Shown: in pieces, positions 10,101 through 61,900 of the stretch
Layout of the letters: each line of letters opens with the position of its first letter
Position numbering within the stretch: the stretch's first letter is position 1
NCBI RefSeq assembly: GCF_921293095.1
Contig: NC_060252.1
Span: 6,076,001-6,140,000, forward strand
Direction: 5' to 3'
Length of the DNA stretch: 64,000 nucleotides
Origin: Ischnura elegans
Taxonomy: Eukaryota; Arthropoda; Insecta; Odonata; Coenagrionidae
Position numbers and translations under genes: made by a program
Notes under the pieces: generated by a model
Seen by the model: only the letters and a program-made list of their open reading frames with translations
Told to the model about the DNA's origin: nothing
The model's database searches: none

Positions 10101-13100
10101 AAACTGACATCTAATCTTCAATGATGCTAAACATGGTTTAGCCGTTCCAGCAGAAAACATGCTTGGAAGGCATGGTAAATGGATTCAGAATTAGAAACAC
10201 AAATATGAAAAATAAATCATCTAGACTTCTTATGCCTCAGTACCAGGAAGCAGCATATAACACTCTTTGTGTATCTTTCAGTGAAATCAAATAAGTTCAC
10301 CCTGTTTCTGTTCTGACATCAACCTTTGTAACATTGTCCTTCTTGTCCACAGTAAGATGCAAGGTTTCTCAGGGTATACATATGAAGTTAAATGAATGCA
10401 ACAAAAGCTTTTAATTTGTCTCCAAGGTTTTCCAGAAAGTCTTCCACGGATTATACACATGTCTCGAGAGTTGTTCTATCTGGCAACTTGTTTGATTTGA
10501 CGTACAGTGAACTTAATATGCATGTTCATAGAACAAACACTTGAGATGAATCTATGAATCATTCACTCATTAAACCGGCATGACTGAACAACAAAGTTTA
10601 TGCCTCGCAAACCTTCCTATAGTTCAATACTTAATGTAACACTCATGCATAAGAGCGCGGAAAACAATATTCTAATGATATTTCCTTGAATTTACTTATT
10701 TACCACTGGAGTATTGCGAGACTTTATTCAAGGCACCATGATCAGGCAAATCATTCAAAGTTAGCAGACCAAATATTTCATAAAGTTACTCAGACATTAA
10801 TTTTCACACAACTTGTTATTTTCACTCCCGATACTTATTTTTAAGTAGAAATTAGGGGCATTTTTGCTCAGTTCACGAACACACGTCAGATTGTGCAATG
10901 ACGTGCCCTGTGTAAAACAGCCTTTATAAATATTTTCATGATATTTGGTTTCCCCCACAAAGGTTTCGATTTTTGAGTAACCGAGAGCTTCCCTATTTAT
11001 GTATGTATTGTTCTAATTATTGTACATGCTTGGGAGCATTAAAATATTATTTCTATGTAATTAAATATGAATATAATATCAGTTTCTCGTCACATTGACA
11101 TACATATGTATAAATGTTAGTTTTTGTCTTCATATACTTCTATCCAGAGTAGCATCAATATAAGAGTAAGTTAAAACTTGTGTATGATTTTTCAATGTAT
11201 TTTCCAGAATATTTAGTGTGAAAAGTCCAATTTTTCATTTTTAGTTGATGAAGAATAATACATATACATATTTTGGAATTTTCATTAAAATCACATTTCC
11301 TTTGTTTATCAGTCGAACCATTGGACAGAATTTTCTTTAGGGCTGCTTTAAACTCAAGTTCTCGTATCTAAGCAATTCCTTACATGTACATCTTCATATG
11401 TTAATTGGTAATCATTATTACTTTACTTCTCTGGTGCATGATAAGTTTTTCATATGTATTTTTTCAGGGAGGATCATTATTCTTGATTGGGCTGTTCCCA
11501 AAGATGTTTTTAAGAAAAAATATCACCCTCCCAATCATGACTCAAACGAGATTGGTGTAAAATCTGAAGCAGATGAAGTGGATGAGCAAGAGTCTGAAGT
11601 TGTGCCTCAAGATGAGGTGTTTGATGTTCATGACAGTGATGAGGGGGAGGAAGAGGACCAAGGAGATGAAGATGACCAATCTGACCACGGAGAATTGGAA
11701 GAGGACAGTGAAGAAGAGCTGGACGAGAAGTATGTATGCCAATGGTTTTTTTTTATTCTAGCCATTGTTATTTTGTGATTGTAAGTGGAAAGAGTTGATG
11801 ACAGGATCTCATGTTAAAAGGAAGAGTGTAATACGTTCAAGAGTGTTTAGCTTTAGCAGTGCAGATTCCTCTGGAAACACCCTGTATCTGTTTGTAGCGA
11901 TGTGAAGCCATAATTCCCTTGGTGCTTAAGTTAAAGGGCAGGCTAATGCTTGGGTTTGATTCTCTGCTTTGGTGGAGATTTTTCAAGATTGCCTGATCCC
12001 TGCTTGAGTGTAAGAGTACAAAAAATCGAGCAATTAATTTGTCGGATTTGACGTATAGCAGGAATCAACTTGGTGCCTTTGCCTTATTTCTCTGTGGCCT
12101 TTCCTTATGTAACTGTGAGAAGGGTGAGAGCGATGTCGTTGCTAGGGGCAACACGATTCCCACGACGGAAGGTGATAGCAGCGATTATGAAACCGTGATC
12201 GCACTCTTTATCACGCTGCGAGCGTCATCGGCCTATCACGTTCGAAACAGATGGTGACAAGCATATGCTGACATAAAAACGAGCACTAAATGCAAATATT
12301 AGCAAAAAATAATTGTTTATTTAATTTAAAAATTCCCTATAATCGATTAAAAACCAATAATATTCGTAATTATTTCTACTGAAGTGCTCTCTTGACATTA
12401 CTAGTTGTCCACTTTGTTCAATTGTTATATGCGCACGGTAGTGAATTCGATTGAGCTGCTTTATTTCCACACAACAAAATGGAAAGTACTGCTAATTGAA
12501 GTACATCCGTGATTCAAACGTCAATTACTTTATATCGAAGTTTAATTATCAACATTTGCCAAGTGCGTTCTCCAACATATCAACATCGTTAAACTCAACT
12601 GATTTGGGCGTTACTTGTTGGAACGATGAAATGTTCATGGTGAAACAAAACTCAGAAGTATTCCACAAACTTTTATTTTAACAGTCAGGTTAGTCTTGAT
12701 AATGACGGTATAAACGTCGAAACTAGTAAACTGTTAAAATAAAAGTTTGTGGAATAGTACTGAGTTTTGTTTCACCATGAACATCGTTAAACTCCTTTTC
12801 GATTTTTTAATCATCATAAATCAACTATTAACTACTTACGTTCAAATCGCTAGCGCGATTACACTTCCATTATCATTTCAACATTAATTAGTTTCAATCC
12901 AAGATCATGACTTTTCGGCCATTCTCTACGATATTGTAAATATAATGACTGCAGCATCTCCCGGCGAGCATTAGCATACTGGATTACGTTATCACGCATC
13001 GAAAAGTAATACTACACTTTCCCCTTAACTTTACCATAATACGAGTACTTTATCATAATATTATCTATTGGCGAAGCGAAGCACTTAGCTTTGAACTGCA

Positions 13101-16100
13101 TCCATTTTAAGTTTTCGTTGTTTGTTATTGTTATTTCAAAGACTCCGCAGACGACGCATGTTTGGAAAGAGATGTGTCGAAGGACTTCATTGGCTCTTCA
13201 GATTTCTCAATGATACCAACCTCAAGGGCTCGTGCCTATACGATACGCGCGATGACGGTGGCTTACATGATCGCGGGATACAGCGGAACGTGATAGGAGA
13301 ACGTGATGGTCATCTATCGCCGTCGTCGCTGTCACATTTACATAATCGAGGTGCTGTCTTCAGTTCAGATGACTTACGGTCACCTCCTCTAAATATATAC
13401 CAGCCTACATAATTATTTGGTTGAATTATTTGAAAATATTATGGTCGTTTCATTATATTTTGGTAGAATTATATGGAAAACAGAAAAAAGTACTTGGTGG
13501 TAATCAATGAGGAAATTTGATTCATGTAAGAAATTAATACTGGAAAAGAAGTTTCTTAAAATTTTAAAAGTTATTATTTATATTAATACTAGGTCTGTAA
13601 CTACTATTACCTTTACATGTTTGCATTTTATGACCTATACATATATGTACACATTTCTGAGGCATAGTCCACTCAACAGAAATATGAAAATGTCTATTAA
13701 TGAAAAAAATGCATGTATAAGTTGCCACCAAATGTTATTTTGGGAATATTACAGTGAATGTGTATAAATTGCAAGAACAACCTTTTGCCAATAATGAGAT
13801 GTCATTGATTGTCAATTTCTTATGCAATATAAGTTTACTTTAGTTAGAAATAGAATAAAACTCATCTAGTAATTTGAAGAATTAGCTTTGAATTGAACCT
13901 GCAATATCACATAAATGAGATGATATTGGAAATGTTAATTGCTTGATTTTTAGGTAAAAATGTGGAAAAATTAAAATAGGCATGAATTTCATAAAATATT
14001 TCTTTTCCAAAAAATGTCTAGTTATGTGTAATTTGAAGATCTTGTACATCATCCATATTTCTGTGTGTTGAATGGAGGTAGAGTGATATGCATAGTTTGT
14101 GCCTTGTATGTTTCTGTCATTTGTATTCTTAGATTGGAATATTTATTGGTACACTTGTTCTTTCTCATCCATAAACATTTGCTATTATTAAATTAAATTC
14201 ATTGAGCAATTTTCTTCTCAGGCCTCGAGGCAAAGGCAGTCAAAAGTCTCGAAAATTTGAAGAGGAAGAAGAACCACCAAAGAGGCCACCACCCAACGTC
14301 TTGGACCGAGACTGTACTGTGTTTTTGAGGAATGTTTCATTCCAAACAACATCTGAGGAACTGAAGGAATTCATGGAAAAGTTTGGGCCCGTGACTTATG
14401 CTCTAATCTGTGTCGACCGTGTCACCGACCATTCCAAAGGCACAGCATTTGTCAAGTTTAAGGTAGATTAAGTCATTAAATACTTTTTAGTGAATGGAAA
14501 CCCTGCAATATTAGTGTAAAATCTTTCCTGTGGATATATTTTATTTTAAAAACAGTCAAGAAAGCAAAACTGGTGCATATTTGGGCATTTTTGACTCCTC
14601 CCCTGAAACCATGTAAATAAATTAAGCATTTGTTGAACCTCTCCATCCACTTGAGTACACATTTTTTTATTTTCTTACTAAGAAGAAAACAAAGTATTGA
14701 ATGAGTACTATTTTGGAAGTGTTTCATTGACAATTTCACAAACTTACTGTAAAAAAAGCATACTATTTAAGTGTATGAATATTTACTAAATGTATTACTT
14801 AGTCATAAAGTACTTAATTAGCATATTTTAGTAAATTAAATTTAGTTAAGTGTTAAATCATAATTAGTGTGTTGAATACTTTACACTACCTTGGTGTTTT
14901 GTGTGGGTGGAAAAAATTTACTTTGAGGGTAAAACTAACCAAATCTATTCAACCACTTCTCCTTTTAAATTGATTGTTTGAGACGTAACTTGGTGAAAGC
15001 GATTCATAATTAACATTAAAAAGAAGAACTTTGTGCTTTCACATAAATATTTATTCACGACCATGGTTTCAACGTTAGACGTCATCATCAGGTGAACTCT
15101 ACAGAGGTCCATCACATCCTTTTATACCAGGCTAGGAGGGGGAGGGAGGAAGGTAACTAGGTTGAATGGATTGGTCAACAGAGAAGAGGTAGAGGTCTGT
15201 AGAGTTCACCTGATGATGACGTCTAACGTTGAAACCATGGTCGTGAATAAATATTAATGTGAAAGCGCAAAGTTCTTCTTTTTCATGTTAATCACTTCTC
15301 CTTTGTTCACAGAGAAGGGAGAACTTTCTATCTTACGTACCCATTTGTTTTGATTCGCCATACGGTTTGATTCCCCACCTATTTTAAGCTAAAGTAAGCA
15401 AACTAATATCCCCATACCTGGTACTGGTAACATAATACAGGTATCCCCCAAGTTACGTAAGAGATGCGTTCCGGCAGACTCTGCTTAAGTCGAAATTTAC
15501 GTAAGGCAAACCTTTGTGTTAGTGCTTCAGAGATTTCGATCAGCGTGGTGAAATTCTCAGCCAAGAAATGCGCGGTAAATTCTCGGTGAAGTTTCATTCA
15601 ATTCACTGCGATATTCATGAACTCTACGGCATATTCTTACGTTATTAGATACAGAATCGATAAACATTAATATAGTCTGAGAGTTGCATCTCGAGCATTG
15701 CCAATCAAAATGTGCAAAATGCTCAGAGTTGACCGATCGCGTGGATTCGGGAAAGTACGGTATCTCAACGCTACATTACTAAACTGAATACTTAAATTGA
15801 TTCATTATGTTATACTGCAATCTAAGGGCCCAAAGAATGGATTGTCTACCTACCTATAATCATTATATCTTCTGCCTTTTATATATTACGTTGATCGATG
15901 AATCTGGTGGTTTCACTGTCACAGTTAATACACGTAGGAGTAGTGTCTAGGATTACGAGCAAATAATACACAAAAAAATACCAGTAAATTACTATATTCT
16001 TAGATACATTCACATGCACATACACTCAATCTTTCACTCACGGAAACATACTTTCATTCTCTCATATCTCAATAAATAACGTGAAAATATCATCATTTGA

Positions 16101-19100
16101 ATATTTACTTCGCTGGAAACATGGAAGAGTATTTCCAAAGCACGAAGCTAATTAAAAGTGAGCTTTTATCCAGCCAAATCCGTCATTAACGTGCAACAAA
16201 GCTAGTGGGGAAAAGCTTTCAATGACGCAATATTCATTTACAGTTGCACACAATATGAGAGAATGAGAAAATGCAGCTTCATAAAATTTTCCGCCAGAAA
16301 CATGTAAACAATTACGCAATTAATATCGTGTGTCAACTTTTTCTTAACTTTTTCGCGGCGTTCATTGCCAACACTCAAAATTTTAATGCCACTACGTGGG
16401 TACTAAACAATTCTTTTCCGCAATAAAGATTTCTGCCTGAAATTCATTTTCTTTTAATTCCCCAGATGGAAATGTCCAAACTTAAGGATACAATTTTTAA
16501 ATAGTTGAAAGTCGGAGTTCGGGTGTGTATGCTGTATAACAAGTTGTATCGTACAGGAATGAGCGCAACCACATCCATCGCTAGAACTGCAAATTTCACA
16601 TTGATTGCTGACTTGGGATTATAAGTGATTTTTCTACAGAAATTAATGAAAATTCCTTCGAGGAATGACAAATATGGGTCACTTTGTTATTTTTAGCACG
16701 TAAAAAACTCTATAACTACGTATTCGATATTTTTTCTACCATAGGTTGTACGAGCGAATATCTACTTCTTCGCGCTCGCATTCGAAAATTAACGTAATCA
16801 TTTGAAATACGGTTATCACTTACGTAAGTACGGATTTACGTAAGTCGAGACATACGTAATTCGGGGGATGCCTGTACTTGAACGTCCCATGACCCCTTGC
16901 TTTTTGGTTTTACCTATTTTGAGGTTTCTGTGATTAATTATGATTTTGGTGGTAACTAGAGATTTGTTTGAATCTCTTTATTATCACCCACCAAACGTAG
17001 GGCACAACACCTGAAAGAAAGTGACATGTACAACTAGATTCAACGCAAACAGCCTAAAGATCTACCACCACAACAATGTTAAGCTTTTTAGTCCTCTAAA
17101 GCAATGTCTTTTCTAAAATATTTATAAAAATATTGCTTAATTCATTTATATTTTAGATAGGGGCTTATTGTTATTGTGTTTTTTTAAATAGATCCCATAG
17201 CCATCTAGTTGTTTTGCTTTATACATATATTGTTCTGATTGCCCATTTCTGTGAGTTTAAAAATTCAGATTTATGGGAGTTTCCCTAAGTTGAAATTCCC
17301 TACTTCAACATACTCTAGAATTGTGTACTATAGAAGCTAATGACTTTTTCCATGTATGTCAAGTTAATCATTCTCTTTGTCATTATGAATGTTGACATTT
17401 TTTTTGAAATGGTATTCAGTGTTGAACTTTTGTGTTGCTATAGAACAGTGAAGGTGCTAAAGCATGCTTAGCTGCTGACAGTGATGAGCTGACGTTGGAC
17501 TGCTCCAAAATTGTTGCTGCTCCTGCAGTTAGCCGTGAAGAGGCAAGGCAAAAGATTGATGAGCAAAAGCAGAAAACTCCAAAAGACGGTCGTAATTTAT
17601 ATTTGGTGAAAGAGGGAGGTACGACATGAACTCAAATGCTTCCTGAATTTTAATTTCAAGTCCTAATGTGGTAAGGTGTCACATGTATGTGCATGTTTGC
17701 TCAATATTTTGAACCATGTCGCTGGTGTAACTGTAAGGCTGAGGAAGAGGTGAAGGAAAGTTAAAATGGTGAGAGATGGGTAAATTTGAAGCTTGTCTTG
17801 TGGGCACTTCCTCTGAGGAGCCAATAATTTGGATTCTTACTCTTGGCTGAATTGATTTTCATCTATGTGGAACTTAATCTGATATTGACGATTGGTCTCA
17901 TTCCATCTTGATCATGCTAATCATGTTTCTTTGATCATGGTCAAACTGTATCATTCAATGATAGATCGAATATATTATAAGACTTATTTCATCAGTCAAC
18001 CCTTTTACTGTAAACCTTCTTACTGGGATACTAGCTAGATATTATGAGGAAAATTTGATGTGTTGCAGGAATTAACCTTACCTTATATTGGTCTCAACCC
18101 CCTTGTTATTTTGATCCTTGTTACTGCCAAGCAGTAGATGTGGAGATTTGTGCATGAGATTGAGAGAGGCAAGCCCAAAGGACTGAATTTGACTAATATT
18201 CCAGAAGTGTTGTGACTGGCACAGTTGCCTCTTGTCACTAAGTTTGTGCTCTTACTCTGAATGAAAGCCTAACCAATGTTGCAAATGACAGTCCCATCAG
18301 GGTTAAATATGGTAGGGGGACCCCAATCCCTCTGAAATGAGTATCTTAACTCTTCCTGTTTTATAAACCTTCTGAAAGGAATGCAATGGAACAGCGTTTA
18401 AGCGAGAACGGGCTATTGCGAGACCCCCACCGTTACAAGAGATAGCCGAAGCACCATCAATTGACCCTATGTTAAGCATGTAAAAAATTCGTTTTTACGA
18501 GGCCCTTTTGGTGTTGGCATTCGCTGTAGTGAGAGTTTCTATCACTGGAAAGCCATCACCAAGGGTCCCTAATCTCTGTAATTGTTGGCAATCTGTTAGA
18601 AATGAAGTTAACATGGAGTGTAATTAATAGTAGCGGGCGTAACTTGGTGGAAATCCATAATCGCAGGAATAGAAGGATCAACAACTTTGCTATTTCCACA
18701 TTGTAATTTATTGACACCGACCATGGTTTCATTACAGAGTAATATTATCAAGGTGATGATGTTGATAATGATACTCTGTAACGAAACCAAGGTTGGTCTC
18801 AATAAATAACCGTATGGAAATAGCAAAGTTGTTGATCTTTCTATTCCTGTAACATGGAGTGCTCAGTCTCAAACTCATGTGGTAAACTGTCATTTGATAA
18901 ATGAGTATGTAGTTCATTTTGGTGAAAATATTGTGGCAATAACATCCGCGAATGCTTGATCTTCTTTTGTTCCTCGCATGGCAGAAAGCAGTCGACAGCA
19001 TACCCGCACATCCATGAGTTGCGTGAGTAGAGAGCATTTGAAGGTAGACATCATGGCCAAAAATTGCAAAACACGTATAAGCGAGAAAATGAAAATAATT

Positions 19101-22100: not shown

Positions 22101-25100
22101 CTGCAATTAAGTTTATAGTTGCAATGACATAGCATCGTAACCAGGTTTTGGGAAATTCGAGAGGTTGTAGTGCAGAGAAGATGATGATTAATTGTATAAG
22201 CTCAAGTAGTACATACGGCACTCGTCCCCATTTGCAGATATGGTAGATCAGTTTACAATGATATATTTTTATAGTGATAAATTAAAAAATTGACATTGCC
22301 TGTATTGAACAGAGATAATTTGGATGTATTTTTGTCAAGTTAGAACATAGGTTTCCGCGGCGATGGTTTGATCTCTGCATTTCTTCCGGGTTTCCTTCGG
22401 CGTCAGCTTGTTTGTAGACAACAGTTTTGCTGGCTATCCTGCCAGCATCTTCAGGTCGAAGGTCAATTTTAAACTTGGGCATTTTTGTCAATTTCAAACT
22501 TGGGCATGCATTGTCAACTGCATATATTTTTTCTCGGGGTAGTACAGTGCTACCCAAATTATTTAATTTTTTGTAATCATTGTTGAGATGTAATGTGTTT
22601 AATTTTGATTTTCCAGGCCAGAATAATGAGAAACCTCAAAGTTGTGGATGCCGATGGTGTTGGGCAATCAAAGGGCTATGGTTTTGTGTCGTTCACAAAA
22701 CATGAGCATGCCTTGCAAGCATTGAGAAATATCAATAACAACCCTGACATCTTTACTTCTGAACAGGTGAGGAACCTCTTATCATGCAAATATATATGTT
22801 TGATTTTTAAGGTTGCATTCTTTTCTTAATTTCAATCTTCTCTGTTATGCTTCATTACATATTCTTGCATATCCTAGAAGTATAATTTGCGAATCATGAT
22901 TCCTCTCAGTTGGTATTGAATGGACTACAGATTGATGGAAGATAGTCTGATGAAAGATGTTATAAGATTATAAAGATGTTACGGTGACAAGGGAATATAT
23001 TTTGCCAAGTATTCATGAAAATTTACCCCAGGCCAAATTCCAATTTACTTTGGGGTATCCTAAACTTACTTAAATTTCCTGTTTAAGCAGGGATAAAGCT
23101 AACAGAGCTGTACCAGGCTTGCTAATGAAACATATGAACTTTTTGTTTGATCTTCTAATAGGCTACACTTTTGGGTTAAATGTGGTTTTTCAATATAATG
23201 CATTCATGTTTAAAATCCCCCACATTGAACACTTATCACCTTATTTTTGACCTGGTGAGTATCGATACCTCCACTGCATAAGTGCTCAACAATCGCCTAC
23301 CGAATCAAATCCCCTCATCTAGTACACTATTAGGGCTATCTAGATGAGCGGATTTGATTCGATGGGCGTTTGTTGAGCGTTTATGCAGTGGAGGTATCGG
23401 TATGTTAACATCCAACATTTTAAACATTAAATGGTCTAATTTACAATTTTTTTTATTTTACATGAAGCAATTTCACCAAGTCACGCCTAAAACTTAATTT
23501 TATTAAATGTGCTATTTTGTTTGACTTCTTATATTGGTAAATGTCCACTACCAACTGGTCATTTATGATTGTGTTTCAAAGTTTAATTGGAAATTACCTC
23601 TTTTAGAACCAAATTATTTAATGCATTAATAATGGAAGCTAATTGCTTCCAAATTATTGCATAAGAAAGGAATTCTCATGCTTTGCACTAATCTGAGAAT
23701 TATGGAATGAGGGGAGTGCTTACTTTCAAGCCCATTTTCCGACTTTTAAGTTGCACTTTCCAAAAAGATTCACTGCTGCACCAAACCCTCGCAAAAATAC
23801 AATATTAAGGTGCTTGTAATTCAATCTTCATGTTTGTGTCCTAGAATAACATAAGTACTACAATAAAGAAAGACAAATGTCGTTTAGGAGCTGATGTGGC
23901 ACCTCTACATTTTTGGAGATACTTTTTGGACCGATAATAAGTGCTGTCTGCGGTGTTATACTTGGGTTGGATTTCAGCCTTTGTTATTAGTCTAGCTTCC
24001 ATGAACATATTTGCTAATTTGTATTCCTAATGATTACTTTGGCGATATGATAAATTTTTCCATTTTACATCCAATTCTTCCACCATCTAGAGACCGATAG
24101 TGGCATTCTCAATAGAAAACAGAGCTATCCTGAATGCCAGGCACAAGCGCCTGCTGAAAAGTCAAGCAATGAATCCGCTGTACCAAGGGAGTGCCAAAAA
24201 ACTCTCATCCGGCAAAGGTGGTGCCGAGAAAGGTGGGCGTGGGCGCAAGAATTTCCAGGGAGCCACTGCCGAGGAACAGGCGGACGAAATGGTGCCCAAA
24301 TATGGTGGGCTGACAGGCAAGCCGGGAGTCAGCTCGCTGAGGTCCAAGAAGAAACTGCAGGGCCAGTTGAAAACTCACGTGGAAAATGTGAAGAAGAACA
24401 AACAGAAGAAGAAGAAGGCTCAGCTGCAGCAGCCCAAACTGCGCAAAGTGTCTGATGCAAGGTCACAACCTAGTCTGGTATGTAAAATATCTAAGGAAAA
24501 TGGTTATTCTTGTGTTGAGGAGGTTCTTGTGTGACTATATGGTTCTGAAAACAAATACACCCATGCCTCGTATAGCACAAGGGATGCATTCCTAGGGGTC
24601 TTTGCGCTTTACGAATTTGCGTTATACGAGAGCGTTATAACATTGGGAAGATAGGGATGCGTTCCTGGTAGCATAGGTCTTGGGTATTGAATTTCCTGTA
24701 AAACATATATATTCCCATAAATAGCCTTAGAAAACCTTATTTATATAAATGTTTATAGTGTAAATGTTTATGTTTAGATAGTAGGCATGCATTCAAAGAC
24801 TTTTATTCATGTTAAAAAAATTCTTACGTTCTTTTGAAATTCCCTCCTGTCGTGCGGCATTGCTGGCAGTTGACTATTTTTCAAACCAGTCCAAAAACAA
24901 TTAATGTGTCACCCAGTCCCTTTTGTCGCTCATCGAAATGATAGGCAAATGCTACTTGGAATGCCATTTCATAGCTAGCAGAGTTTATGAATGATAAATC
25001 ATTTTAATTTGAAATCCTCCGAGGCATTAGCAGCTTTGTGAAACAGTCTCTAAATGCCTTGAAACCTGACCCAGGTTTTCCTTCCCTGAAAATGAATGAA

Positions 25101-30675: not shown

Positions 30676-30830
30676 CAGCCCCTGAAACAGCCCCGAAACA
30701 ACCCCGAACCAACCTACCTGCAATGCAAGACTTACCTAATTAGGACTACTGCGGAGAAATACTTACTCCTTGGCAAGCAAGGGGAAATCGGTGCTAAGGC
30801 TTTAGTATTGCACTTGGAGGGAGAATGCGT

Positions 30831-31040
30831 GCGAAAAATCCACAGAGGAAAAATCATTCGCCTTGACCGGGATTCGAACCCGGATCCCTCGATTTCCGGT
30901 TAAGCTACCGAGGCGTCATTCTCCCCTGTGGAAATGATGCCTCGGTAGCTTAACTGGCTAAAGCACTCGGCCGGAAATCGAGGGATCCGGGTTCGAATCC
31001 CGGTCAAGGCGAATGATTTTTCCTCTGTGGATTTTTCGCA
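30831..31040. repeat. tRNA-derived palindrome, copy 1
   Basis: Inverted arms (about 30831-30920 and 30933-31040) share AATGA...GCGAATGATTTTTCC sequence and a full tRNA-like body. The left arm lacks about 17 nt corresponding to the D-loop/anticodon 5' side, so only the right arm has a complete tRNA fold. The arms are separated by about 12 nt. Confidence 0.85.
30939..31011 (+). tRNA. tRNA-like sequence, 73 nt, probably a pseudo-tRNA
   Basis: Folds as a class I tRNA: acceptor GCCTCGG/TCAAGGC (one mismatch), D stem GCTT/AAGC, anticodon stem CTCGG/TCGAG with loop CCGGAAA, T arm CCGGG TTCGAAT CCCGG. The anticodon by position is GGA, but position 33 is C instead of the universal U, and GGA would be serine, which needs a long variable arm absent here. 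So it is a tRNA-derived repeat rather than a working gene. Internal A and B boxes may still recruit Pol III. Confidence 0.45.
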
Positions 31041-32840
31041 CTATTTGTGCATTGCGGGTGACTCCGTAAAAAGTTATCACCGTGGCTAGTCCCGGTATAC
31101 TTTCATTGGAGGGAGAAGTTTTACCATTGTCCTATCACAACTCTCTCTCCCTCCAACACCTCACCCCAGTATCTCCTTCCCCTCCATGTGTTCCAATGAA
31201 TATCCCTCTGATTCAACTGATGTCTCCAACCCAGAAGTTGAGGGGAAAATTCTGGCTGGTATGCTGTTGTCTCAAAACCAGGGAATGGTGTTTTGCGGAG
31301 CGGCCGTTTCTGCAGGGGCAGTGAGGCATCAGTGGGCAGTAGTTGAATTCGCCTGGCTACCCCTCCACTCCCTGGAAGAATCCCTCCCCTCAAATCCTGT
31401 CTCGCCTTGCATGGGCAACCTTTCTTCTGCTCGTGGGCCGGTCGGGGACACATGTCTAGTGAGACATGGCAAATTTTGAGCAATTATTCTGCTGGTATTT
31501 AGCTGGTAATGTTTTCTTTGGGATCATGAATTACTATCATTGCTTTCTGTAATACTTGTGATTTTGACTCTACTTTTGAATAGATATCGAATGGTAATAA
31601 CTCATAAATTATTTTTGGCTACCTTTTTCTTGTGAGCTGTTTTTCTTGTTTGTGGAGTTTTTCCCTGATCCAGCATGTGACTGACGGTTGGAGTATTTCC
31701 CTTGTCTGGACTCACGTGAAAAATCAACTAGATTTACGACGTAACGTCACACTATGTCCAAGTCATTATCGAGGAACAATATTGTTTTTATTTAGATTAA
31801 AAAAGTTTTCCTCTAAAATAGTAAATCATAAGTATTTTATCCAAGGACTTACAAAAAATATTGGGGAATCTGGACTGGGAATCAATCAATCAATCCAAAC
31901 TGGAAATCCTGCCCCGGAAAATTTTTTAAGTATGTAGTGAGTTTTAAGTTTTTTAAGCATTTTAGAAGAGTCGTATGATCAACTTTAGAACCCTGATAAC
32001 TCGAATCTGGATATTTGGACACTCCGGGGAAAATCGACAAGCCTGACACATTTTTTCCTCACACCAATAACGAATTTTTGAGGGGGCTCGGGCTCCAAGG
32101 AGGAGAGTTGCACATAGGAGGGGCACACAAAGACATGTTGGGTGAAGAGCAAATCACACTCTCAGAGGGGGAGTCATGGCATTAGTCATTGTGAGATGCA
32201 ATTTTTATTTGCCTGGAAATCTCATGTCATGATTATTTTCTCTTTGAAAAACTCTTGTTGATGCCATCTATTCTCCAAAGTTAAAACGTATCTGTTCCAA
32301 AGGAATCCTTTTTTGACTCCTTGTTGAATTCTTGGTGAAAAATCAAATTCAGCTAATAAGAGACATGCTAGCTAAGTTGTGGGAAGGAAAACACTGACAT
32401 TTATGCAAGGAATTATGGCATGCGGTCAATTGGGGATTAGCACAAGATTATTTATCTCTTACGTTTTTTTCTTTGCATGGTGGAACGAATGTTAAATTAT
32501 CTGTGACAGAGGCATTATTGTCTTTTCCTGTATCCATCGATCAGTAGCATTATTCATGTCTATGATGATGGTAATATTTCCGTGAAATGAAGTACTTAAA
32601 TATCGAAAACACTTATCTGCGGGTGTGTTTACAGTACTCACTTGATTTATTTTTACTGTAAACCATGGGAGTTGTATCATTTATGGTTTTAAAATATGTT
32701 GACTAACAGCATACTGAGGACTGCGAGCATGTGATGTTAAGAGCAAAAAGATAATCTTTGCAGTATAATTCGACATTTTTGATTACGCGGTTGTTGGTTT
32801 AAAAGTAACAAAACAATAACGATAATCTCGTGTTCCGATT
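31041..32840. other. Intergenic stretch before SDAD1
   Basis: The part at 31082-31483 is GC-rich with overlapping open frames on both strands, none recognised. A truncated copy of the hAT MITE family of 26035-26300 lies at about 31850-32095. No gene seen. Confidence 0.45.
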
Positions 32841-33078: not shown

Positions 33079-36000
33079 GTACGCTCATCAGAATTGTGTG
33101 TGATTTTGTATTATTTTTTGTGCACGTTACCTACTTATGTGTTTCAATTGACAGTTTTTGCAGCAGTATCGTCATTTTCAATCAACTCTGGAAGTTTTTC
33201 GACTGAAGCCCGATCAGTTCAACAAAAACCTGGACGAGTTGGTTATGTTTCTAGCTCAGGTACGTATAACAGGGCTAGTGATTGACAATTCCTTCATTAT
33301 TGCTTAGAATTTTTGACAATGTGTGCAATCGTGATATCGCGGCTACTTCTATCAAGTTAATGCTTTGTTTCGCTGTTACAATAGCCATTAGTCAATCGGA
33401 AGAACAGCCGAAGAAGTGTCCTCGACTATGAGGAAGGATGAAGGTATGAATAACACTTTGACCCACAGTATGGTCATATTTCTTCAAGCTTCTAAAGATT
33501 TTTTGTTGTATATATATTGTGAACATAGAACAAAAAAATGGTGGAAGATATTATATGATATCTTCCACTGTGGGAATATGGATCACTACCCCTATGAAAA
33601 AATTGTATAAACCTGTATAAAATTTGTATACATTCTTATACAATTGTCATGACAATGTATAAGAATGTATACAAATTTTATGCAGGTTTATGCAATTTTT
33701 TCATAGGGGTATGTTTTCTGTTAATGGAGAAAGAATAGAGAAAATGAAGTAGACGTAGAGGATTAGAAACGACTGTAAGTGCTGAAGTTGTTGGGTGTAG
33801 AGAGCCAGCTTCTAGATGAGGTACGGAGGAAACGCATTGTTCCGATTGGATGAGTTTTGAGGGTGGAGGGGGATCATAAATGCTGAGTTAAGGTAAGGAT
33901 GCTTAGTGTGCGAAGGAGTGGAAAAGTAGTACCACACCTATCTTCCATTAGCACCACATAAATTAATATCGTAATTATGTACTATGTAAGCACACCCAGT
34001 TTTAATGATTCTTACTTCTCACTATTCTAAATTTCGGCAACCATAAAAATGAAGAAAAAAGTCAATTTGCCATCGCGCTGGGCATTACTTGGATGTGAAA
34101 TTCTGCTCTGTCAAACTCTAGCGAACTTATTACATTTACACGAATAGTATCATGTATGTAGGAGTGTCTCTGCATGCTGCTGCCATGGCCTCACTAATAA
34201 AGTTTGAGATAATGCAAACAGCGCAGTGTTTCATTTTTCTACATTCCCCTCGTTAGAGAAGGGGACCCTCCCCCTTGGATATAACCTCAGTATTAGTATT
34301 TATTTTGTCCTTCTGATGAAAAGGTTTGGAATTATTGTCTCTTCAATTTCACTTTTCTTTTCCAGGTGTCACACTGTTACCCTGTACTGCTGGAAACTTA
34401 TCCTCAGCAGTTAATGGACATCCTGGAGTCTCACCATACTGTTTTAGATAGTAATATGCGAATGGTAATTAATTTATAGGGATTGGAATTGTTTTTAAAG
34501 TATTAGTTAATGCTAATTTAATTTTTTTAATCCATTGTAACTTTTAAATGTCTTTAACTTTCAGTCATTTTGTAGAGCTCTCATCCTCCTCCGGAACAAA
34601 GGACTTCTGAAACCAACAGCCTTGTTATCTTTATTTTTCTCGCTTCTTCGCTGCCAGGACAAGAGCCTGCGAAAATTTCTTAAAAATCATATTGTGTCTG
34701 ATATATTTAACACAAATGTGAAACACAAAGATGCTCGTCTGAATGCCGTGAGTAAAGAATTTGTTTGGATGATGTAGAAAAATGAGAAAAACTATTTGAA
34801 ATGGAATTGTTGACGATTGGAAGTCCACTTAGCATTCTCAATTTTTTGTTTCAATATTGTTTGTATGAAAAGGGTGTGATGGTAGACGTTATAGGTTGGT
34901 GTACAGTGTTTTGATGTGGATTCTATTAACAGTGGTCGTTTACTTTCATTTAGGCTTTGCAGAACTTCATGTTTGGGATGCTGAAAGACAGTAATGCCAA
35001 AGCTGCAAAGATGTCTGTTGTAAGTAGATAAAAATGTGTAGTAGTCATGATGGTCCCCCCTCTTGTGTAGCATTATCCTTCCATTCCATTCTTTTATTAG
35101 AAGTAATTATCGTATTACATTTAAGTCTAGATTGTCAATGGGCATATTATCAGATTTGAGTATTTTCTTCGCAAGATATATTGTTCTCATTTGGCATTTT
35201 ACATTTTAAAAGTCAGATTGTGAGCAATACAAGATTTTCAAATAGGAAAGCAAGTCTACCCTTGACTTTTATGGCTACTCCAGTGTCTATCTCTATCAAT
35301 TAATTGAATTTGGTATTATGTATGTATGTATGTATAATGATATTTGGTTCTCCATTTTTAGGATATAATGATAGAATTGTATAAGAAAAATACGTGGAAT
35401 GATGCTAAGTCAGTGAATGTGATTGCCACAGCTCTCTTCTCCAAGGTCACCAAGGTAATTTTATAATATTTTTATCTTCATCTTTAATCTAAGTGTCAGA
35501 CAAAAGTAGGCAAACAAAGTTGAATGTTGAATTTATGGAAGATGAATACCAAAAGACAGACCAATGAATACAATCTTGCCAAAATGTGCTAATCTTAGAC
35601 CTCATGTACACCAAAGCACAGTCAAATGTAAAAAGCTTGAAAATGAAACAGCTATCTTGTTGTTTTGCCTCTTGTGGATTTAATACTCTATCAAATACGC
35701 TGTAATATATGCTCTATAATATGTTGTGGGTTATTAAAGCCAGAGCAATGAGTGAAATTTCAGCAGTTTGATCGTATGGCAGTGAGTTTTCCAAAATTAG
35801 TACCGTGGAAAGTACCTAGTGAAGCACTGCCAAGACATAAATGATCATAGTCCACCTGAGGTTTTTTTTACATTTATATGTATATGGACTGAATATTTTT
35901 CAAACAAGTTGAATGTGTTACTAGGAATTGATTTGGTGAATATTTTTGTTTCTAATTTTTCAGGTTGTGGTTGCTGCTTTGAAGTTCTTCCTGGGGTCTG

Positions 36001-56086: not shown

Positions 56087-56271
56087 AATACACCAAAGGA
56101 TGAAGTTCGCCATGAAAAAATATTTGACTTAGCCGGGATTCGAACCCGGATCTCCCGATTGCCGGTCAGTGTGTAACTGGTAGCACGCCTGACCGGCAAT
56201 CGGGAGATCCGGGTTCGAATCCCGGCTAAGTCAAATATTTTTTCATGGCGAACTTCATCCTTTGGTGTATT
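56087..56271. repeat. tRNA-derived palindrome, copy 2, perfect 83-bp arms
   Basis: Arms 56087-56169 and 56189-56271 are exact inverted copies as far as I can read, separated by 19 nt. Each arm includes the tRNA T arm (CCGGGTTCGAATCCCGG) and an anticodon arm (CCTGA/TCGGG, loop CCGGCAA). The loop between the arms supplies the D stem. The 5' acceptor half is replaced by the inverted arm, so no complete cloverleaf forms; instead one long hairpin would. The tail after the right arm (CACCCGTGCGCGTGACTGCG) is shared with copy 3. Confidence 0.92.
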
Positions 56272-57202: not shown

Positions 57203-57786
57203 CAGTGGAACCTCGTTAAAGCGAGTACGGGCTATAGCGACACCCCGGCTATTACGAGAGATAGCCGATGCACCGTCAATTGACCCTATAATAAGCGTGT
57301 TAAAAATTTCGTTTTTACGAGACCCTTTAGGTGTTGGCTCTCGCCATAACGAGGGTTTCACCGCCGGAAGACTTTCATCAAGACTCCTTAACCTCTGTAA
57401 TTGCTAGCGATCTGTTAGAAATGAAGTTAATGGAGTGCTCAGTCTCAAATTTATGTGGTAAACTGTCGTTCGATAAATATAATGATTGACGAAACAATGC
57501 TTTGCATGATTTTAAGTCAGTGCGGCACTTATAAATTGTTTGAATAGTTAGTCGTTATTTGAGTAAGGAAATTTAGTGATGCAAAAAAAACATCGCCTTT
57601 CGTCTGGATTTATGCTTACGTTTGTCGGATAGATGTTTATCTGTCGCCGCACCACTCCTGTTCCTGTATATCTGTTCGCAACAGGTATATTGGCTATTAT
57701 TTGCTCCACCTCCGGTAAAGCGACAATTCGCTATAGCGAGTGTTTATTAGTGCACCGTGGGGTGTCGTTATATCGAGGTTGCACTG
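57203..57786. mobile_element. 584-bp pogo/Tigger-like MITE, short form
   Basis: Ends CAGTGGAACCTCGTTAAAGC and ATATCGAGGTTGCACTG with TA on both sides (57201-57202 and 57787-57788). It is an internally deleted relative of the element at 18384-21012. At 57425-57445 it has the uninterrupted form of the site where hammerhead locus 3 inserted. Confidence 0.9.
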
Positions 57787-58944: not shown

Positions 58945-61900
58945 CTGAAAAAGTGAAAGAAAGCCAATGTATGTTATATATAAAAAGTATACAATGTATG
59001 TTATATATGTATATGAGAGAAAGTCAAAGTTTGTATGCAGAATGGTTCACGTGAATCCAGGTTTATGTACATATTTCATTGCCTTGGTTGTGGGTATACA
59101 TAGTATTGATTATCCATTACAATGGACAGAGAGCCAAAAAAGCTTCTAAATTTCTCTAAATATTGTTAAATATTGTTCTCCCCAATTTTTTAGTCTATTA
59201 GGGGAATCATTTCTTCAGAGCAAATGAAGCCTATTAGCTTTAGGTTCTTGTTAAATTCCTATGGTATTCACGTGAGTATATATTAATGAACTGAAACACA
59301 TGAAACAATCCCACATATTTTTTTCAGAACAGAGAGCATTTGACTCTCAAAGTCACTGTAAAAGGTGTAAGACAAGCTGATAACAAGGAAGGAAGCAAAT
59401 ACAGAAGGTGCAAACTTTGGAAAGAGAAGTGGTCTGTGGTCATTGGTCAGTTGATGGCATCGAACCCACCAGGAAATACTTGTGTGGTGGCAGAGTTTGG
59501 ATTTTTGGTATTTTATTGGGAGATTATTTTCTGGGATTTTCCGATGCATGGATTACAAAACTTTCAAAAGTCATGAGCAGAAATTCTTTATTTTACGAAA
59601 AAAGAATTTTTATAAGAGTGCCATTTTCTTCCTTGAGGCACATTTTCAGTACATGCAAGTCAGTGGCGTAACAAGGAATATGTTTTGGGGGATGGTCAGG
59701 GGTGGCAACGGGGGAAGGGGTAAATCGCAAATTTTTGAAAAATGACATGCCTGGAAATACATTTTTACATAGTATTGGCACTACAAATTTAACTTTAAGC
59801 CGATGCAGTTAATACATGTCATAACTAGACAATATCTTAAAATATTTTTTTTTCTCTGAGGCTTTGGGGGTACGGGGGATCGATCCCCTCACCCCCCCCC
59901 CCCCATTGTTACGTCAATGATGCAACTCATATTTTCATGTGGCAAGTTTGCTTGAGCAAAATGGGTAATTATAGACTGGAAGTGCCACACGCAAGCTGAC
60001 CTCATCTTCTCTGGTCAGGGGTGGTTTTAGCATTGTAAACAGGTGGCTGAAGTCCTCCTGAAAGTTTATCCCCCATTCTTACTATGTGCATGCCTCTGTC
60101 AATGATTGAAATAAAGTTGATGCCATTTGGCATCATCTCAAAAGAATTGTTCATCACAAGACCCCCAGAATTTACAGCAGTCCAGGTCTAAAAATGGATC
60201 CACATCAAAATATCTAGGAGAGAGAGGAAGGGAAGCAATATCTGCTCATGTGCCATGCGTTGTTGGGAAGGCAAACGGAAAACTGATGCAAAATAGCAAG
60301 CAGCTGAAATAATGGCGTGGTAAAAATATTTGAGAAAATCATAAATTATTTCATACTCAAGATTAAGTTATAATTTTTCGCCAAAAATACATTTATAGTT
60401 TTCTTCAAATTTGATATGCAACATACGTGGAACTATATATGTACATAGTAAGATATGAAAGTTGAAAAATCTTCTCGGGATACATTTGGCACTTTTTTCA
60501 GACAGGTAAAAAACTCTGAACTCACGTGATTGTCACCTCAAAATCGTCATCGCCTCGCTGTTAACGAAGGAGAGGGAAATAAAGAAAGATTTTTGAATTT
60601 GCTCCTTCCTCATGTATGAAAATATATTCTGAAGCAGAAAGGGTTGCCATGTTTAGTGGTGACAAGAGTTAGTCAATTTTGTTCATAACAATAGTTATGA
60701 AAAATATTTTCTTGAATTTTGGCTAATAACTAGGCTTTTCCAAGTTTACATTCCTAATCCAGTTGCCAGCAGACTGTTCTTAGTACTAAGTTGAAACTTA
60801 CAGGAAACGCATATTGTAGATTTTTTTCCATACTAGTCAACTCTAATTTGCTCTCAACTCAGTTTAAATCTTGCTACGCTTGTCTGTATATCTTTTGGAT
60901 GAAAAATATGGAATTTTGCAAGGTACAAATCAATCGCCCGCCAACTTTCATATATATGATTTTACACTTTCCCGGCGAACAACTTTAGAAAAATCTTCTC
61001 GGGATACCGCGCGGGTTAGATTATTTAAGAGCGCCGACGTTTCGGGTACCGACTCGCTACCCATTCTCACGGCTACCAGAGTCGGTACCCGAAACGTCGG
61101 CGCTCTTAAATAATCTAACCCGCGCGGTATCCCGAGAAGATTTTTCTAAAGTTGTTCGCCGGGAAAGTGTAAAATCATATATATGAAAGTTGGCGGGCGA
61201 TTGATTTGTACCTTGCAAAATTCCATATTTTTCATCCAAAAGATATACAGACAAGCGTAGCAAGATTTAAACTGAGTTGAGAGCAAATTAGAGTTGACTA
61301 GTATGGAAAAAAATCTACAATATGCGTTTCCTGTAAGTTTCAACTTAGTACTAAGAACAGTCTGCTGGCAACTGGATTAGGAATGTAAACTTGGAAAAGC
61401 CTAGTTATTAGCCAAAATTCAAGAAAATATTTTTCATAACTATTGTTATGAACAAAATTGACTAACTCTTGTCACCACTAAACATGGCAACCCTTTCTGC
61501 TTCAGAATGTATTTTCATACATGAGGAAGGAGCAAATTCAAAAATCTTTCTTTATTTCCCTCTCCTTCGTTAACAGCGAGGCGATGACGATTTTGAGGTG
61601 ACAATCACGTGAGTTCAGAGTTTTTTACCTGTCTGAAAAAAGTGCCAAATGTGCCATAAGAAGTTTTCACTTCAAAAAATTATTTGGCATAGCTAGGATT
61701 TTGGAGGTCAAAGCCAGGGCTAGCAAAGACACTTGGGCTAATGGTCCATTATCAAGTAAGGAAAGAAATCTTCTGGGAGTTGCTGAAACGGCTGAATGTA
61801 GATGGTGTCAGGAATATGATGAAATAACAGTTAATCTTTTATGTGAGTGTCCCACCATCACGAGAACCCAAAATAGACACCTGGCCTCACCATTTTTGAG

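Follow-up and report, generated by a model that had tools for sequence, protein, structure and literature searches.

The three foldback insertions found in a 64-kb stretch of Ischnura elegans NC_060252.1 (hereafter the window; A, 12597-12779; B, 14966-15292; C, 18621-18849) are probably miniature copies of Penelope-like elements (PLEs), built at the target by reverse transcription that was primed internally and from both ends; most likely, two short cDNAs of the start of the element's RNA were stitched head to head at each site. All three are shorter than 330 bp, are bordered by perfect direct repeats of 15, 12 and 12 bp, respectively, and are self-complementary over 12631-12784 (82%), 15009-15292 (79%) and 18664-18849 (85%). 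A first-pass annotation of this DNA had described a common leader, inverted arms, hammerhead-like cores and perfect 12- to 15-bp border repeats, all of which were confirmed at A, B and C, with the leader located on the plus strand at 12607, 14982 and 18636, respectively. Each insertion also has a minimal type I hammerhead core; A has only one, in one arm. Since it corresponds to a 3' tail in reverse complement, the leader puts the element orientation of A, B and C on the minus strand. An empty site for C is present in the window, with one target copy at about 57430 and a 2-nt gap within. The features are collected in Table 1.

Table 1. Features of insertions A, B and C and of the empty site for C (window positions)
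Feature	Position	Strand	Remark
A TSD, left copy	12582..12596		15 bp, perfect
A tail	12597..12638	-	PLE ORF codons 1-14; holds leader
A tail-bearing arm	12639..12685	-	inner end at most 1 nt from hammerhead cleavage-site equivalent
A tailless arm	12686..12779	+	contains core
A hammerhead core	12689..12735	+	U3-A8 type; covariance model 34.9 bits
A TSD, right copy	12780..12794		15 bp, perfect
B TSD, left copy	14954..14965		12 bp, perfect
B tail	14968..15007	-	PLE ORF codons 1-13; with leader
B tail-bearing arm	15008..15195	-	L001 1696-1468; extends upstream of hammerhead beyond TATA box
B core, element sense	15052..15098	-	C3-G8 type; 43.4 bits
B tailless arm	15196..15292	+	L001 1697-1793; head-to-head join without filler
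B second hammerhead core	15203..15249	+	43.4 bits; self-cleavage assay target proposed in first-pass annotation
B TSD, right copy	15293..15304		12 bp, perfect
C TSD, left copy	18609..18620		12 bp, perfect
C tail	18621..18663	-	ATG at 18658-18656 (minus) opens 12 codons; holds leader
C tail-bearing arm	18664..18755	-	ends at CACC, the 5' edge of hammerhead helix I
C core, element sense	18712..18758	-	U3-A8 type; 40.1 bits
C second core	18755..18801	+	decayed; 23.6 bits
C junction filler	18756..18761		6 nt
C tailless arm	18762..18849	+	
C TSD, right copy	18850..18861		12 bp, perfect
Relative of C's host repeat	57203..57478	+	empty site, without insert

Read in reverse complement, the leader common to A, B and C is the PLE "tail", made up of the first 12 to 14 codons of the PLE ORF; where PLEs have a long open frame, the start of that frame matches this tail. 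A, B and C belong to three PLE families rather than, as had been proposed, to a single dispersed family with its own leader. The assignment to Penelope-type elements itself was borne out, since relatives in the genome that encode RT and GIY-YIG domains in one ORF share arm, core and tail. RVT_1 was detected in L069 and L074, and GIY-YIG (PF01541) in a C-terminal piece of L069, with no Pfam GIY-YIG match in the whole L069 or L074 frames; the L074 protein matched no solved structure. These domains were read in relatives, and the family A ORF is known from its start only (L108/L109). Other PLE hallmarks are head-to-head arms with TSDs in A, B and C, a 30- to 40-bp tail at one end that overlaps the ORF start, and tandem as well as inverted full copies. 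The insertions encode no protein beyond the ORF start, in line with the earlier view that they are non-autonomous. An ORF-bearing parent of family C was not found with patterns extending past the tail, which gave 5 and 2 places: of the 5, the three fetched (L098-L100) had no ORF continuation by eye, and the other 2 past-tail places both overlap known foldbacks (L017 and L028).

As no Rfam hammerhead model matched in the window at gathering scores, nor in 15 loci at E values up to 10, a covariance model was derived from 16 PLE families found in this genome; B, C and A's relative L108 were among them, so these loci score by construction. In a search of the 64 kb, the top five matches all fell at the A, B and C loci (43.4 to 23.6 bits), followed by one match of 16.9 bits (E 0.046) and a remainder of at most 10.9 bits; the model found no core in L087, L090, L103 and L115. 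Across the 16 families, 96.5% of 144 helix cells were paired, compared to 65.7% after shuffling, and the covariation score was 0.93 versus 0.30, with none of 500 shuffles as high. The conserved core and the strongly covarying helices support that these are type I hammerheads, with catalysis as a prediction. Core pair 3-8 was C-G in 7 families and U-A in 9, with no mixed pair. We considered U3-A8 as a new core variant and rejected it, since natural U3-A8 covariation is reported for several examples in PMC3088659. Further departures from the core are A4 in L110 and L083-like loci and an extra U after the core in all 16 families; palindromes were found in 14 of 16, a count slightly tilted because the choice of helix III length awarded palindromes one point. 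The type I topology and very short helix III resemble those of PLE minimal hammerheads and animal retrozymes, and a salamander hammerhead has a palindromic tetraloop above a single base pair (PMC7229834). An Anolis PLE hammerhead required protein for self-cleavage (PMC11167929). Of 14 families examined for a TATA-like box, 10 have one 31 to 42 nt upstream of the core and 4 have none at the right distance.

Family C is abundant: exact 28-mers from mid-arm, core end and across the tail boundary occur 513, 392 and 300 times in the genome, respectively. Further copies therefore exist, and the core is about as common as the arm; with covarying helices, none of the findings that the annotation had named as speaking against its proposal was obtained. 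We examined 30 fetched C copies; as the query used to pick them contained the tail and both arms, this sample alone cannot prove a one-tail pattern. The two arms of these copies share a single end point at the hammerhead's 5' edge, where the TATA boxes of related families predict the transcription start. The sense arm begins at reference position 1 in 21 copies and at 2 to 6 in 9, while the inverted arm ends at 1 to 9 in all 30. One arm carries the tail and the opposite arm halts just short of the ATG, stopping in 29 of 30 copies at 89 to 100, the ATG occupying 98-100. Among 41 listed C junctions, one exact tail lies nearby in 6 and two in none; exactly one tail is present in 7 of 8 B loci, and L008 has no tail. 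Exact flanking repeats measure 9 to 14 nt in 21 of the 30 copies and only 5 to 8 nt in 9. The junctions differ in all 30 fetched copies (27 distinct fillers and 3 filler-less joins with different arm ends) and in 40 of the 41 listed. Filler sequences are similar to the proximal 50 nt of the arm (7.2 versus 4.9 shuffled, 0/500 as high) and unlike its distal 50 nt (4.9), which suggests that filler is copied from the adjacent arm ends.

These features are probably best explained by the following course of insertion. The PLE mRNA would begin at the hammerhead 5' edge, and PLE protein would cut both target strands some 9 to 15 bp apart. Each cut end would prime reverse transcription within the RNA at a different start site, about 40 nt into the ORF for the tailed arm and just before the ATG for the tailless one. 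Both cDNAs would reach the RNA 5' end, about 95 to 140 nt away on a single-unit transcript, and host end joining would seal them head to head, adding filler templated locally. For a full-length copy, the transcript would have to be tandem or read-through; the B arms, extending past the TATA box, would also derive from such an RNA. The minimal insertions would then be by-products of PLE activity, each built anew, and not self-copying foldbacks. In vitro, PLE protein cuts both strands and extends them from two internal start sites, the tail corresponding to the sequence between them (PMC11167929). That work, however, saw no difference in start sites between the strands and therefore leaves the one-tail pattern unexplained.

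One finding counts against two cDNAs: the arms within a copy are more alike than chance, differing by 4.9% within versus 6.6% between copies, with none of 5,000 re-pairings as low. Diagnostic site 41 likewise agrees in 26 of 28 copies (C/G in both arms) and site 54 in 27 of 30. This is also predicted by self-priming, in which a single cDNA snaps back and the second arm is copied from the cDNA or from an antisense template, as the 2013 paper proposed for inverted pLTRs of rotifers (PMC3846280). We nevertheless consider it unlikely, because a second arm made in this way should include the tail as well; in 29 of 30 copies it ends before the ATG instead. In addition, snap-back should cost one arm its annealed stretch, but both arms reach the RNA 5' end, with fillers sitting between the two arm ends, and the two arms of A differ in their 5' ends. 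Copy-private variants occur in both arms in 2 cases versus one arm in 64, although later mutation also yields the latter.

The first-pass annotation had suggested that these elements may circularise or self-process. In a self-propagating scheme, a non-autonomous foldback or retrozyme would propagate with a hairpin RNA or a hammerhead-made circle as template and PLE protein acting in trans. The high copy number (the mid-arm count above), the hammerheads and the missing ORF-bearing C parent would suit it, but junctions are not inherited and the arms stop at the predicted linear 5' end. Retrozymes are direct tandem repeats of hammerhead monomers that give circular RNAs (PMC7229834), whereas 100 listed of the 392 family C places contain 16 core pairs within 400 bp, 15 of them head-to-head and a single one direct. 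The RNA needed for the Anolis reaction, moreover, includes ORF downstream of the start sites (PMC11167929), which is absent here. A self-propagating unit is thus very improbable, and a retrozyme or circular RNA was rejected as the main explanation on the per-copy junctions and the head-to-head pairs. A DNA foldback transposon or MITE with a fortuitous hammerhead likeness would account for the foldback shape with flanking direct repeats, but symmetric TIRs and a fixed TSD length would be expected of it; instead the ends are asymmetric, with a tail on one side only, flanking repeat length varies, RT-encoding elements have matching arms and tail, and the fixed point that copies share lies at the inner arm end instead of the outer one. 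We give this origin almost no credence.

PLEs, tails, inverted pLTRs and U3-A8 cores are already known. Like Poseidon of Anolis (PMC11167929) and the Adineta vaga Penelope families (PMC3846280), the elements studied here have an ORF with RT and GIY-YIG, a minimal hammerhead in the pLTR, inverted pLTRs with TSDs (8-10 bp as described there) and, optionally, a tail that overlaps the ORF start and sits 3' of one of the inverted pLTRs. Unlike them, the insertions here consist of two arms only (the sizes above), reach high copy in family C, and have a uniform inner end with a junction that differs per copy. In the literature, we came across no description of the minimal form at high copy number, of junctions particular to each copy or of the one-tail pattern.

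Within two-ended insertion, a tentative further step, which we hold to be possible but somewhat less likely than not to be correct, is that double target-primed insertion is symmetric, with each of the two RNA start sites serving one DNA strand. One RNA, or two from one locus perhaps paired via the self-complementary loop III, would be used, every insertion would receive one tailed and one tailless arm, end-joined head to head, and the hammerhead at the RNA start would mark or organise the 5' end, the meeting point of the two cDNAs. If so, inverted pLTRs, the optional tail and solo foldbacks would be one product class. The insertions would provide a readable record of how PLEs, a poorly understood class of retroelement, integrate, and with hundreds of minimal copies whose junctions are legible in a single genome, sequence alone can test the question. 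A further suggestion from these copies is that a PLE may litter a genome with noncoding, ribozyme-bearing foldbacks, and a hammerhead placed at the presumed mRNA start bears on the hammerhead's purpose.

Insertion A lies inside a larger repeat, of which at least 1,200 bp are common to 23 of 30 loci (the window's own counted), with a mean identity of 94.9% across 30 matches. Being carried along in this repeat, the A copies examined represent one old insertion, and A was therefore rejected as an active family. In A, the inner end of the tail-bearing arm is no more than 1 nt away from the predicted cleavage site, which may be one hint toward self-processing.

With the window lying at C7:6076001-6140000 of the genome searched (1,722.7 Mb, 110 contigs), every feature that the first-pass annotation had named for its three foldback insertions A, B and C, i.e., leader, inverted arms, hammerhead-like cores and perfect flanking direct repeats, was found again at each of them. 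That C is a true insertion follows from a relative of its target without the insert, located inside the window itself. The repeat carrying A is approximately 1.25 kb long and has other copies with inverted ends, by eye like those of TIR DNA transposons.

Positions of the insertions and of other features in the window
Feature	Position (strand)	Direct repeat	Tail translation	Description
Insertion A	12597-12779	15 bp	14 residues	
Carrier of A	12105-13354			repeat
Predicted cleavage site, A	12728/12729			
Insertion B	14966-15292	12 bp	13 residues	
Insertion C	18621-18849	12 bp	12 residues	
Relative of C's target	57203-57478			no insert
Sixth-best hammerhead match	22413-22461 (-)			16.9 bits, E 0.046
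tRNA-like palindrome 1	56087-56271			95%
tRNA-like palindrome 2	30829-31041			82%
Long palindrome	60482-61652			1.17 kb, self-complementarity 98.8%
Short palindrome 1	33587-33711			95%
Short palindrome 2	23260-23402			86%

The leader is indeed present, and its nature could be revised: translations of the tails of A, B and C identify it as the reverse complement of the first codons of the open reading frame (ORF) of a Penelope-like element (PLE). In several copies, e.g., L074, L091, L095 and L096, the tail continues into the ORF, which starts with MDFHKVKAESIEFI in L091 and with MEFYKVKASTIEFI in L095 and L096, and of which the first 17 residues were read in L074; by eye, the ORF of L108 and L109, which have A's core and arm, starts with MNISSFHQVTP. 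Full elements with reverse transcriptase and GIY-YIG domains had been sought, and L069, found as a B-like place without a second arm close by, has both domains together with B's sequences: a 517-aa open frame is followed by the arm, core and tail of B, and the other side holds an inverted copy of its own 3' end (526 bp). Pfam placed reverse transcriptase in L069 and in an 843-aa frame of L074, and recognised GIY-YIG within the C-terminal piece of L069. Excerpts of PMC3846280 describe tails overlapping the ORF start in rotifer PLEs, and excerpts of PMC11167929 present the tail as the stretch between two internal reverse transcription start sites.

A hammerhead covariance model was built from 16 PLE families, including B, C and A's relative L108, and its five best window matches on both strands (43.4, 43.4, 40.1, 34.9 and 23.6 bits) all fell at the A, B and C loci. 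The next-best match has, by eye, a six-pair helix II and AAAA replacing GAAA, and is perhaps a decayed PLE relic. The model also found the core in 9 of 13 more loci where regular expressions had found none; judged by eye, a single family accounts for seven of the nine, another is B-like and L082 is aberrant (24.8 bits). Helix I, helix II, pair 3-8 and the helix III element were scored in the 16 families with a readable core, and the pairing count was redone on a MAFFT alignment of them. Compensatory changes, which had been sought in the helices, were evident: 96.5% of 144 cells were paired compared to 65.7% with shuffled partners, and the covariation score was 0.93 versus 0.30 (0/500 shuffles), with shuffles overstating independence because the families share ancestry. 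Two of the five measures (counts of pairs, pair types) were not clearly above shuffles (80/500 and 39/500). Core pair 3-8 was C-G in seven families, U-A in nine and mixed in none; excerpts of PMC3088659 already describe U3-A8 in several hammerheads from nature. All 16 families have an additional U after the core, and 14 have a perfectly palindromic helix III element, compared to approximately 2.8 expected with random interiors. Judged by sequence, the A, B and C cores are predicted hammerheads. Two PLE families (L110; L083 745-789 (-) and its likes) have A for U at core position 4 (CAGATGA).

Family C had 2090 first-look candidate places, 40 of which were scored and 30 fetched, window copy included. 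Against a reference running 1-135, both limits being ceilings for measured arm ends, the sense arm started at 1 in 21 copies and at 2-6 in the other nine, and the inverted arm ended at 1-9 in 30/30. The tailless arm stopped at 89-100 in 29 copies and at 106 in L034, with the ATG at 98-100; as the query contained the tail and both arms, these 30 copies alone cannot prove a one-tail pattern. Exact flanking repeats measured 9-14 nt in 21 copies and 5-8 nt in nine. Genome-wide counts of exact C 28-mers (300 crossing the tail, 513 mid-arm, 392 at the 5' end) indicate that most C arms extend to the 5' end and that slightly more than half have the tail; the tail/mid-arm ratio is 0.58, where one tail per insertion predicts 0.5, and single arms also exist. 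Within 200 bp of 41 C junctions, one exact tail was present in six and two in none. Among the matches listed (100 of the 392 5'-end places), 16 neighbour pairs lay within 400 bp, of which 15 were head-to-head, one direct and none tail-to-tail. Eight B loci, the window's included, were head-to-head with differing inner ends, and exactly one arm reached the tail in seven, neither in L008.

Close heads (gap 0-30) were found at 263 family C places and at 0 in the reversed control; junction letters from 41 of these places gave 40 distinct versions. Fillers between the heads of the 30 copies were 0-16 nt long, the 27 non-empty ones all different. The evidence is against foldbacks inherited as units, which would have junctions in common; the C copies read do not. 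The 43 fillers of at least 8 nt from both sets resembled the 50 nt of arm closest to them (longest match 7.2 on average versus 4.9 shuffled, 0/500) and not the distal 50 nt (4.9). Such locally templated filler would be the expected residue of joining two DNA ends, and is like that of theta-mediated joining. C core pairs also lie head-to-head 100-310 bp apart (C2:101354035-101354374, C3:122386751-122387067 and others), which may reflect long fillers, or DNA captured between the heads.

The arms differed by 4.9% within one C copy and by 6.6% between copies, with 0/5000 re-pairings that low. At site 41, both arms had C or G in 28 copies and agreed in 26 of these, two further copies having A in one arm; at site 54, they agreed in 27 of 30. 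Copy-private variants numbered two in both arms and 64 in one. Both arms therefore derive from a single RNA or from RNAs of the same locus, which fits self-priming as the source of the second arm and two-ended priming equally; in our reading, self-priming is opposed by a second arm that halts before the tail, by both arms reaching the 5' end and by filler sitting between them.

Transcription starts approximately 30 nt downstream of a TATA box. Of the 14 families examined, 10 (L091, L092/L117, L106, L108/L109, L110, L111, L112, L113, L116 and B) have a TATA-like motif whose start lies 31-42 nt ahead of core position 3; the motif is absent at that distance from L101, L105, L107 and L114. From these motifs in other families, the predicted RNA start coincides with the 5' border of helix I, the point at which C arms end. 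The A arm with the tail terminates no more than 1 nt from the predicted cleavage site, a single event that may be chance, and the second arm passes right through the ribozyme.

Altogether, the best reading is that two-ended, internally primed reverse transcription plus end joining built the insertions. The PLE protein would cut both target strands, the two cut ends would prime within the RNA, each using its own one of the two start sites, both cDNAs would extend to the nearby mRNA 5' end, and host end joining would seal them. C's size would follow from a single-unit mRNA having only 5' untranslated region upstream of the start sites; B arms extend beyond the TATA box and so would require a longer RNA. 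In the biochemistry excerpted from PMC11167929, a PLE cuts and extends both strands from internal starts, start sites are alike on both strands, hammerhead mutations have no effect on insertion, and no reads end at the cleavage site; given these strand, mutation and read results, the one-tail pattern and a hammerhead role are what we infer. PLEs and their hammerheads, inverted pseudo-LTRs (pLTRs), tails and the U3-A8 core are already known. In the literature searched and in excerpts of PMC11167929, PMC3846280, PMC7229834, PMC6155905, PMC3088659, PMC12910113 and PMC8969392, we found no minimal head-to-head insertions of PLEs at high copy number whose junctions vary from copy to copy, and no one-tail pattern; the novelty of minimal insertions, junctions and pattern is provisional.

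Other palindromes also occur in the window. The hammerhead model had no match in either short one, and no direct repeats were seen by eye at the borders of the two with tRNA-like sequence. The first of the latter is one member of a family; 1413 candidates came up at first look, and the 40 of them that were scored range in length from approximately 169 to 200 bp, with matches in both orientations.
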